Assembly: GCF_900104265.1 (NCBI RefSeq) | Contig: NZ_FNJJ01000003.1 | Coordinates: 164,672 to 228,671, forward strand | DNA from: Ectopseudomonas guguanensis | GTDB lineage: Bacteria; Pseudomonadota; Gammaproteobacteria; Pseudomonadales; Pseudomonadaceae | DNA length: 64,000 nucleotides | Direction: 5' to 3' | Shown: positions 17,088 to 20,421 of the stretch, one piece after another | Layout: each line of letters begins with the position of its first letter | Numbering within the stretch: the stretch's first letter is position 1 | The notes under the pieces: model-generated | The model's input: only the letters and a program-made list of their open reading frames with translations | Databases searched by the model: none | Told to the model about the DNA's origin: nothing | Position numbers and translations under genes: made by a program

Positions 17088-18200
17088 TCAGGGATTGATG
17101 ACGATGGAGAACTTCTTGGAAACGGTGTTGCCGTTGGAGTCGCGAACTTGCGCGGTGAAGTCATCGGGAATCGACGTGGCATTCTGCGGTTCGCCGCTGA
17201 GCACGCCATCGCTGCTCAGGGTCAGGCCGGCCGGCGGGAAGCCGCTGACCAGTCGCCAGGTGGTGCCACCCACGCCGCCGCGCGATTCCAGCTGCACGGA
17301 GTAGGGGGTGCCGACCCTGGCCTGCGGCAATGCGGAGAGCTGGGTGATATGCAGCCTTGCAGCCGGGTGGCTGGTGGCCAGTCGATAGAACTTGACCCGC
17401 GCGCCATCTTCGCTGTTGTCGCTGCGGCTGTTCAGCAGAGCACCTGCCTTGAAGTAGAAGGTGCGGCTGTCCCAGGCCGGATCCAGCGGTACCTGGAGGA
17501 CCGGCGAGCCATTGATGGTGACGGCCACCTCGGCCACCCCGTCACGGTTGCGCGCCATGCCCAGGCGATAGACGAATGCCTGACCCAGCTTGACGCCCTC
17601 GACCAGGTTGTAGCGTTTGGCTTCCTCGTTGCCCTCCGGGCTCTGCTTGACCCTGGCGAAGAGGCGGCCGGTCTGGGCGTCCAGGTCGTACTGGTAGTAC
17701 AGGGTGACCAGCGGCATGGCCTCGTAGGCGTGAATCTGGCCAACGGCGACCAGGCCGTTGCCAACCGGCACCTGCAGAACGCGCAGGCGCGCGTCCAGGT
17801 GAGCGCGACCCTGATTGCTCCAGTTCACCGCGTTGGAGCTGGGGTCGATCATCTGCCGCAGTTCGGCACGGGCATAGTCGGCGCGCGCCGAGAGGGCACC
17901 GTTGGCCGGTGCCCAGAAGGTCATGGCGCCGTCGGTGTCGGTACGGAAGTAAGGCGAGGTGTAGCCCTGCGCGCCGTTTAGGCGGTCGGGATACAGGGTC
18001 TGAGCGCGGCCCTGGTTGCCGCCTTCTTCGTCCACCGGCAAGGTCAGCGACCAGTTCTCCAGGGCGAAGTTGCCGCCGGGAGCCAGCTCCGGGCGCAGTT
18101 CGGCATGGCTGGTGAAACTCAATAGTGAGCCCGTCACGGCAGCTCCGATCACGGCGGCGTAACTACGCTTGCTAGACGTTGCGACAAGATTGTTGTTCAT
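17088..18200 (-). CDS. exported polysaccharide lyase family 7 (alginate lyase-like) protein with C-terminal Ig-like domain
   Basis: Predicted secreted or periplasmic uronate-polysaccharide lyase, 370 aa. A signal peptide covers about residues 1-33 (ending SFTSHA). The PL7 jelly-roll signature appears as RAELRQM (about residue 110), GQIHA (about 156) and [10 protein letters not shown] (about 235), the three catalytic strands of alginate lyases. The final 90 residues look like a putative Ig/cadherin-like domain ([30 protein letters not shown]), perhaps for binding. I start at ATG 18200, behind AGGA at 9 bases, rather than seven codons upstream. It lies downstream of nasT; a similar lyase lies beside nasST in P. 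aeruginosa (PA1784, from memory). Alginate as substrate is inference. Confidence 0.88.
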
Positions 18201-18441
18201 CGTTGTTTTTCCTGAAGTCATGCTCTAGATGAAGGGTCTTTCCCTGGCAACAGCGATACGGGGCGGACCTGTCCATGGATAGGGTTCGCCGGGTGATCGA
18301 TAGCTCCCTGATTGCCCGTTGAACCTCAAACATGACCGGCGGCTGCATCGCCGAGTTCAGCTTCGTTTCATCCCTGCAGCACGCTTTCGGACGATCGGTT
18401 GCCTCTATGGTGGCTTGATGGCATCAAAATTGCCGGAGTGC

Positions 18442-19020
18442 TCACCCGCCCAGCATGTCGTGCATCGCGATGATCTGCTCGGCTACCTGGATCAGCTTCT
18501 GCTGACGGCTCATGGCTTGGCGGCGCATCAGGGTGTAGGCCTCCTCCTCGTTGCAGCTTTTCATCTTCATCAACAGGCCCTTGGCCAGCTCTACTCGCTT
18601 GCGCTCGGCCAACTGGGCATCACGTGCCTGGAGTTGGGCGCGTAGCGCCTGGTCGCTCTCGAAGCGGGCCATGGCCACGTCGAGAATCGGCTGCAGGCGC
18701 TGGGCGTGGATGCCCTCGACTATGTAGGCACTGACGCCGCTCTGGATCGCCTGGCGCATCACGCCGGGATCGTGCTCGTCGGTGAACATGACGATCGGGC
18801 GCGGCTGGTCGCGGCTGACCAGCACCACCTGTTCCATCACGTCGCGGCCGGGCGATTCGGTGTCGATCAGGATCACGTCGGGGCGCACCGCCTCGACGCG
18901 CTCGGGCAGGTCGATGGTCAGGCCGGACTCGTCGATCACCTCGAAACCGGCTTCGATCAGGGCGGCCTTGAGGCGGCCGACCTTCTTCGGGGTGTCGTTG
19001 ATCAAAAGGATACGCAGCAT
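18442..19020 (-). CDS. nasT: ANTAR-domain response regulator / antiterminator NasT
   Basis: Positive regulator of nitrate assimilation that binds leader RNA and prevents transcription termination; 192 aa, cytoplasmic. Residues about 1-120 form a receiver domain (RILLINDT; possible phospho-Asp in VILIDTES). Residues about 130-190 are the ANTAR RNA-binding domain: a coiled segment, then KRVELAKGLLMKMKSCNEEE and AYTLMRRQAMSRQQKLI. In the absence of nitrate or nitrite it is held by NasS (established for Azotobacter and Paracoccus systems). The start is 18 bp after the nasS stop, so the two are one operon; the matching RNA target is seen upstream of nasS itself. Confidence 0.96.
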   Translation of the reverse strand: MLRILLINDTPKKVGRLKAALIEAGFEVIDESGLTIDLPERVEAVRPDVILIDTESPGRDVMEQVVLVSRDQPRPIVMFTDEHDPGVMRQAIQSGVSAYIVEGIHAQRLQPILDVAMARFESDQALRAQLQARDAQLAERKRVELAKGLLMKMKSCNEEEAYTLMRRQAMSRQQKLIQVAEQIIAMHDMLGG

Positions 19021-19038: not shown

Positions 19039-20250
19039 TTACAGGGCGACAGCCGGGCCGTCGGCCAGGGCGTGCAGGCGGAAGCTGCGGGCATAGGCGG
19101 CAGGGTCGCTGCCGTCCCAGCAGCTGCCGTCCTGCAGGATGGAGCTGCGCATTTCCCCCGGCACCGCGATGCCCAGGGCCGTGGCAGCCTCACGATACAG
19201 CGCCAGTTGCTGGACCTGGCGGGCCACGCCGAGGTAGTCGGGATCGCTGCGCAGCAGGCCCCAGCGGCGGAACTGGGTCATGAACCACATGCCATCGGAC
19301 AGATAGGGCTGGTTGACCAGGCCGCCGGCATGGAAGCGCAGTGGGTGTTCGTCCAGCCAGGCGTGGCCCAGGCCGTCCTGGTACTGGCCGAGAAAACGCG
19401 GGGTAATCGCCGAGAGTGGGGCGTCGACATAGTCGCTGCCGCTAAGCAGTTGCGCAGTGCTGCGCTTGTTCTCTTCGCTGTCGTCGATGAAGCGGGCCGC
19501 TTCGAGCACCGCCATGATCAGGGCGCGGGCGGTGTTGGGGTGCTGCTCGGCGAAGGCGCGGGTGCAACCCAGCACCTTTTCCGGGTGATCCGGCCAGATC
19601 GCCTGGATGGTGGTCAGGGTGCAGCCGAGCTGCTCATCGACGGCCTTGGCGGTCCACGGCTCGCCGACGCAGAAGCCGTCGATGCGCTCGGCCTTCAGGT
19701 GCTCGACCATCTGCGGTGGCGGCACCACCACGCTGTCGACATCGCGCAACGGGTGAATGCCCTGGCTGGCCAGCCAGTAGTAGAGCCACATCGCGTGAGT
19801 GCCGGTGGGGAAGGTCTGGGCGAAGGTGAGGCGCGCCTCATGTTGGTGCACGTATTGGCGCAGTGCTTCGCCACTGGTCACGCCAGCGGCCTGCAGGCTG
19901 TGCGAGAGGTTGATGCTCTGGCCGTTCTGGTTCAGACCCATGAGCACCGCCATGTCGGTGGCCGTGCCAACGCCGAGGCCCAGTTGTACGCCGTAGATCA
20001 GCCCGTAGAGGCTGTGCGCGGCGTCCAGCTCGCCGCTGAGCAGACGGTCACGCAGGCCGGCCCAGGAGCTCTGGCGATGCAGTCTGATGCTCAGCCCGTG
20101 CTTCTCGGCAAAGCCCTGAGTGGCAGCGACGATCACCGAAGCAGAGTCGCTCAGGGCCATGAAGCCAATGTTCAGCACGCTCTTTTCCGGGGCGTTGCTG
20201 CCCCAGGCCCAGGTCAGGGCGTCGTCGCGCGGGGTGTCGTGTTCGCTCAT
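19039..20250 (-). CDS. nasS: nitrate/nitrite sensor NasS (NrtA/CmpA-type binding protein)
   Basis: Cytoplasmic nitrate/nitrite-binding protein that sequesters NasT when ligand is absent; 403 aa. It has the periplasmic-binding-protein fold of NrtA (LNIGFMALSDSASVIVA near residue 26; LDAAHSLYGLIYG near 75; TFPTGTHAMWLYYWL near 145; GFCVGEPW near 193) but no signal peptide, which separates NasS from transporter NrtA. The operon has a sigma-54 promoter and a predicted NasT-responsive leader immediately upstream. The assimilatory genes nirBD/nasA are not in this window. Confidence 0.95.
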   Translation of the reverse strand: MSEHDTPRDDALTWAWGSNAPEKSVLNIGFMALSDSASVIVAATQGFAEKHGLSIRLHRQSSWAGLRDRLLSGELDAAHSLYGLIYGVQLGLGVGTATDMAVLMGLNQNGQSINLSHSLQAAGVTSGEALRQYVHQHEARLTFAQTFPTGTHAMWLYYWLASQGIHPLRDVDSVVVPPPQMVEHLKAERIDGFCVGEPWTAKAVDEQLGCTLTTIQAIWPDHPEKVLGCTRAFAEQHPNTARALIMAVLEAARFIDDSEENKRSTAQLLSGSDYVDAPLSAITPRFLGQYQDGLGHAWLDEHPLRFHAGGLVNQPYLSDGMWFMTQFRRWGLLRSDPDYLGVARQVQQLALYREAATALGIAVPGEMRSSILQDGSCWDGSDPAAYARSFRLHALADGPAVAL

Positions 20251-20301
20251 GCTGCATCCTTACCGTTCACGCAAAAGACTCGGGTCATGGACCGCGTCCA
20301 T

Positions 20302-20351
20302 AAAAAAACGTCGTACCAATCCCGGCCAGAGTGCCGTGACTGGATACGACG
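20302..20351 (-). terminator. conditional intrinsic terminator in the nasST leader
   Basis: Arms CGTCGTA and TACGACG, with an inner GC-rich hairpin, followed by seven T on the minus strand. Its 5' arm overlaps ANTAR hairpin 2, so formation should depend on NasT. Confidence 0.8.
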
Positions 20352-20390
20352 CCGTTGTCGCTCAAGCCGTTTCCGACGTTGGAAGGGCCT
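20302..20390 (-). promoter_or_regulatory. ANTAR (NasT-type) two-hairpin antitermination leader upstream of nasS
   Basis: Read on the minus strand from 20390 down. Hairpin 1 (20390-20364): outer arms AGGCC/GGCUU, a small internal loop, inner arms UUCC/GGAA and hexaloop AACGUC. A 2-nt linker follows. Hairpin 2 (20361-20346): arms GCGAC/GUCGU and hexaloop AACGGC. Both loops have A at position 1 and G at position 4, the ANTAR-binding signature. The 3' arm of hairpin 2 is also the 5' arm of an intrinsic terminator (arms 20351-20345 and 20315-20309, then seven U), so the structures are mutually exclusive. About 50 nt separate the terminator from the nasS ATG. Confidence 0.8.
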
Positions 20391-20405
20391 TTTGCAGTGA
20401 GGTGA

Positions 20406-20421
20406 AGCAAGGCATATGCCA
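20406..20421 (-). promoter_or_regulatory. sigma-54 (RpoN) promoter of nasST
   Basis: Minus strand TGGCATATGCCTTGCT matches TGGCACG-N4-TTGCT at every key position, with GG and GC 10 bases apart. The expected start near 20396 is only about 6 bases before ANTAR hairpin 1. I did not find a clear NtrC palindrome in the 230 bp upstream, which lie in the lipoprotein gene. Confidence 0.75.

Follow-up and report, generated by a model that had tools for sequence, protein, structure and literature searches.

What controls the production of the sensor and antiterminator that respond to nitrate in Ectopseudomonas guguanensis? In the stretch of DNA analysed here (the window, 64 kb), a short segment on the minus strand (20302-20421) lies ahead of the NasS/NasT operon, and we consider it highly probable that this segment is a NasT-responsive ANTAR attenuator. 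The anatomy of the element, its conservation, its covariation and its co-occurrence with NasT and with the leaders of nas target genes were all directly observed. The relevant features are as follows:

20406-20421, minus strand: sigma-54 (-24/-12) box TGGCATATGCCTTGCT, a perfect match
20364-20390, minus strand: hairpin 1 (P1), hexaloop AACGUC at 20375-20380; from the fold and from pair changes on both sides
20346-20361, minus strand: hairpin 2 (P2, the antiterminator), hexaloop AACGGC at 20351-20356; from the fold and a near-invariant core, GAC-[A/G]NNGNN-GTC
20302-20353, minus strand: intrinsic terminator ending in U7 (20302-20308); from the fold and its overlap with hairpin 2 in 61/61 parsed leaders
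19039-20250, minus strand: nasS, nitrate/nitrite-binding sensor; PF13379 (NMT1_2), 299 bits; closest solved chain NrtA 2g29
18442-19020, minus strand: nasT, receiver-ANTAR antiterminator; PF03861 and PF00072; closest solved chain EutV 6wsh, E 3e-20

The first-pass annotation had described a near-perfect -24/-12 element, two hexaloops each with A at position 1 and G at position 4 (A1/G4), and a hairpin-2 3' arm (20346-20350) that doubles as the 5' arm of a terminator ending in seven U. All of these were found at the positions given, and the promoter element is in fact a perfect match. TGGCATATGCCTTGCT is the sole perfect -24/-12 match in the window, against a chance expectation of 0.24. Taking the C of TTGC as -12 places the putative +1 near 20395, and the predicted terminated RNA is 94 nt long (20395-20302). 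Loop-2 bases 4-6 come first in the 5' arm of the terminator and the hairpin-2 3' arm follows, which makes GUCGU (20350-20346) common to both structures; since the terminator starts in loop 2 and runs through this arm, the two states are mutually exclusive. The full 94-nt RNA folds into hairpin 1 plus the long terminator (-40.8 kcal/mol, z -4.3), and the terminator half folded alone reaches -28.8 kcal/mol (z -6.3). When the 3' half of the terminator is removed, hairpins 1 and 2 form with the predicted loops AACGUC and AACGGC, at a z of -0.8 that is no better than shuffles. A simple terminator scan detected no terminator at the leader, because its stem and loop rules are unsuited to a long interrupted stem; folding and conservation were used instead. 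No sigma-70 promoter was found between the terminator and nasS, and the best candidate for an NtrC enhancer site upstream in the window scored 7/12, which is chance level, with nothing above shuffled sequence. A small perfect inverted repeat (ATGGAC-GCG-GTCCAT; 20286-20301, minus strand) sits between the U-run of the terminator and nasS.

Domain matches and closest solved chains agree with the earlier identification of the downstream genes as those of NasS and the ANTAR protein NasT. NasS is 63% identical to NrtA in this genome and the two are not separable by score, therefore adjacency to NasT was used as the criterion; here an NMT1/NrtA-like sensor indeed adjoins a receiver-ANTAR protein. 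NasT is the sole ANTAR match detected in the genome. Reading the list of EutV contacts against the alignment, with the chain numbering shifted by 2, NasT retains the equivalents of Arg142, Lys143, Lys149, Glu160, Tyr164, Arg168 and Met172, and differs from EutV at Lys147, Asn173 and Arg175. Immediately 3' of nasT lies a gene for a Polysaccharide-lyase-7-type alginate lyase (17088-18221, minus strand).

If the leader matters to the cell, how widely is it kept? We parsed the DNA upstream of nasS from 90 loci of the Pseudomonadaceae, and 61 of them pass a strict rule that asks for the box, both hairpins and the terminator. The -24/-12 box is conserved upstream of nasS across the family, and in every one of the 61 parsed leaders hairpin 2 and the terminator overlap, which had been proposed beforehand as something relatives should share. 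A1 is kept in loop 1 of 59/61 leaders and in loop 2 of 54/61; G4 occurs in all of them, the search itself having been biased towards G or A at this position. Several more loci (L011, L014, L034, L066, L087, L091 and L097) carry hairpin 2 and the terminator with an altered hairpin 1, the close relatives L011, L013 and L014 being altered there, and position 1 of hexaloop 2 is G rather than A in L042, L045, L059, L070, L074 and L077. Full dual-hexaloop function may thus vary among leaders. In L063 the element is strongly degraded and the terminator retained. Three genomes of one genus, g12 (G146, G101 and G094), have two full NasS-like genes each, with their own leaders (L042/L060, L059/L064 and L051/L070, respectively), and many P. 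fluorescens-type loci have one leader before nasS and a second directly 3' of nasT.

Compensatory change had been anticipated in both hairpins, and this held for hairpin 1 but not for hairpin 2. Across 54 leaders, 8/9 pairs of hairpin 1 have changed on both sides with A1/G4 kept, giving 84 double-change cells where shuffles give 32 (sd 5); pairing stands at 79.6% and falls to 37-55% when the arms are slid. Hairpin 2 hardly varies and does not covary across leaders, because its 3' arm must also form the terminator stem. Beyond hairpin 2 that stem does covary, at positions 8, 9, 10, 12 and 13: the pairs at position 8 are T-A, C-G and A-T, and the others are similar.

Searches with RNA models were consistent with this picture. 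The Rfam family RF03032 (narK RNA) matches the window at 20346-20420 with 36.8 bits, below its curated gathering cut-off of 43.2 (E 5.5e-6 over a 141-nt stretch, 4.7e-5 over the whole genome), while the nasST leader of P. alcaligenes exceeds that cut-off with 46.9 bits. A covariance-model search of the leader had been suggested in the first-pass annotation, and we built two models: R1 from 54 nasS leaders, the window sequence included, and R2, held out, from 31 leaders with the window's genus excluded. R2 recovers the window leader at 56.2 bits (E about 1e-14, the E-values of both models being rough owing to a short calibration), and its next-best site in the 64 kb scores 11 bits. Taken together, the initial observation is confirmed and strengthened. 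In the whole genome R1 finds the leaders of nasST (64.5 bits), narK (49.1 bits) and nrtA (42.3 bits), the gene after each site being assigned by comparison, and the next site scores 16. A fourth leader, before nirB (L100:5979-6117, minus strand), matches Rfam P11 (RF00625) with 146.5 bits, and the narK leader (L100:9461-9532, minus strand) matches Rfam narK RNA with 71.9 bits. Both of these Rfam matches resemble NasT/ANTAR leaders behind sigma-54 boxes, on which the Rfam names are silent. The structural nas genes are on contig C16 and nasST on contig C8.

Outside the family, 40 NasT loci in the class were considered. A clear dual-hexaloop leader precedes nasT only in L140; in most loci the leader lies 3' of nasT/nasS, before nrtA, narK or nirB. 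Two other gammaproteobacteria, L133 (about 2540-2780) and L153 (about 2163-2239), have a single A1/G4 hexaloop hairpin before nasT, followed directly by T5 in L153.

Within the Pseudomonadaceae the leader (at least 27 bits) is present in 65/79 named loci with upstream DNA, and absent from Stutzerimonas, the P. putida group, P. psychrophila, P. fontis, P. sagittaria and Pseudomonas sp. Irchel 3E20. Most leaderless loci retain the -24/-12 box, nearer to the start codon. On a NasS tree the distribution needs 7 changes when L236, which comes without upstream DNA and was removed from the loss count, is left out, and 8 with it; well-supported branches require at least 4. The tree by itself cannot distinguish gain from loss, and we infer losses from the wide scatter of leader-bearing rows, homologous in sequence, over all main groups. 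The leader would then be old in the Pseudomonadaceae and would have been lost about seven times, mostly with the promoter kept. One genome, which we take to be P. aeruginosa-like on the strength of a 98% LasR match, holds the box and an A1/G4 remnant of hairpin 1, with no hairpin 2 and no U-run.

These patterns also bear on other explanations of the element. The segment could be an attenuator that limits nasST, also where transcription runs in from the lipoprotein gene upstream, without responding to NasT or no longer doing so, the hexaloops being left over from the duplication of a nas leader. The stem core of hairpin 1 in the window has 4 bp only, plus a mismatched extension; L011, L013 and L014 have changed in hairpin 1 while hairpin 2 and the terminator persist; and the decayed element of the P. 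aeruginosa-like genome would fit as well. However, hairpin 1 keeps A1/G4 and its pairing across genera despite sequence change, whereas a relic would not covary, and lineages that dispense with the control have mostly lost the entire element. We therefore regard this explanation as unlikely. Alternatively, the terminated 94-nt RNA might act mainly in trans as a NasT sponge, as EutX and Rli55 do for EutV. RNAs with hexaloops are able to tie up an ANTAR protein (PMC8934654, citing the EutX and Rli55 work), and the 94-nt RNA would be abundant at low nitrogen. Nevertheless, termination locks hexaloop 2 into the terminator and leaves one hexaloop free, and in the loci examined the element is directly upstream of a nas gene and never alone, making a sponge very improbable. 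Finally, a chance resemblance in an ordinary sigma-54 5' UTR with a terminator could account for the perfect box, expected 0.24 times per window-sized stretch, but is refuted, to the point of being negligible, by the held-out covariance model, the covariation and the 61 parsed leaders.

How, then, would a NasT-responsive leader work? For the nasST leader of E. guguanensis we infer NasT binding, readthrough, nitrate response and NtrC dependence from related systems. Nitrate or nitrite dissociates NasS-NasT, and NasT binds the nasA leader RNA (PMC3795266). Hexaloops are the binding sites of ANTAR dimers, whose binding stabilises hairpin 2, with G4 stacking on Tyr164 of EutV (PMC3369931; PMC8934654). 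In P. aeruginosa ntrBC mutants nasS and nasT are about 80- to 120-fold down (PMC7214821), and in P. stutzeri both genes depend on NtrC (PMC8443478), which fits a sigma-54 promoter; the lineages of these studies still have the -24/-12 box. Sigma-54 promoters before NasT-type genes had been predicted earlier (PMC12316311). When nitrogen is limiting, sigma-54 RNA polymerase would start near 20395, presumably under activation by NtrC. Without nitrate, NasS would hold NasT; the terminator would form, using the hairpin-2 3' arm, and end the transcript at 20302 after about 94 nt. In the presence of nitrate or nitrite, NasT would be freed and would bind hexaloop 1 and then hexaloop 2; hairpin 2 would be stabilised, the terminator would lose its 5' arm and the polymerase would read into nasS-nasT. 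Given the NtrC dependence in relatives and the nitrate response of NasS-NasT, we expect both low nitrogen and nitrate to gate the operon. The sensor operon would sit under the same AND gate as its targets (low nitrogen plus nitrate present), with feedback on itself in addition.

This feedback logic, carried over from the known chemistry of NasS and NasT (PMC3795266), suggests that nasST most likely boosts its own expression in the presence of nitrate. NasS would rise together with NasT, and the net feedback could therefore be amplifying, neutral or damping; a requirement of NasT for its own readthrough also implies a basal leak. Several lineages manage without the leader, which counts against this reading. 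A bolder version, in which the leader is a positive-feedback nitrate switch with memory, is a tentative idea that we think rather doubtful. Threshold or bistable nitrate induction would be conceivable because NasT would promote its own readthrough together with that of its inhibitor NasS. If this bolder version were true, Stutzerimonas, the P. putida group and the P. aeruginosa line would offer natural experiments in which the feedback was removed, through repeated clean loss of the attenuator with the promoter kept.

The NasT/ANTAR leaders of nirB, narK/nasA and nasAB in Pseudomonas, Azotobacter and Paracoccus and the NasR leader of Klebsiella nasF have the same two A1/G4 hexaloops and, as here, a second hairpin overlapping an intrinsic terminator. 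The regulator is the same for the NasT leaders, and those of narK and nrtA in this genome share box and loops with nasST. Those known leaders control transport or reductase genes, whereas the nasST leader controls the sensor/antiterminator operon. The model of RF03032 comprises the sigma-54 box and hexaloops 1 and 2, to which the window matches end to end (with 36.8 bits, under the cut-off); narK gives the family its name, and its model leaves the terminator outside. RF00625 (P11), the nirB leader here, likewise has a sigma-54 box, hexaloop hairpins and a terminator, but is longer, has an extra hairpin between the loops and is filed as an sRNA. In Enterococcus eut, the antiterminator gene lies downstream of the leader it acts on. 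The amiECBRS operon of P. aeruginosa has the same arrangement (gene order PMC3369936). In both of these the regulator is part of the target operon, whereas nasST is a two-gene sensor operon with its own dedicated leader and with the structural genes on another contig. The nasTS operon of Paracoccus is also nitrogen-controlled, but its reported control is an NtrC site and the hairpins lie between nasS and nasA (PMC5424462). We found no description of a leader ahead of a nasS-nasT operon in the literature searched; an earlier account may exist, for example in the Azotobacter nasST work. We regard nasST as a new target for a switch of known type, which here occupies an uncommon place in the circuit.

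The entries filed in Rfam as 'narK RNA' and 'P11' are seen here to carry the features of NasT-type leaders. For the Pseudomonadaceae, the leader represents a conserved and apparently undescribed layer of Pseudomonas nitrate control, in which full production of the sensor would need nitrate. Well-studied P. aeruginosa-like and P. putida-group bacteria are without an intact leader, and results obtained with them should therefore not be extrapolated to P. fluorescens-type species.
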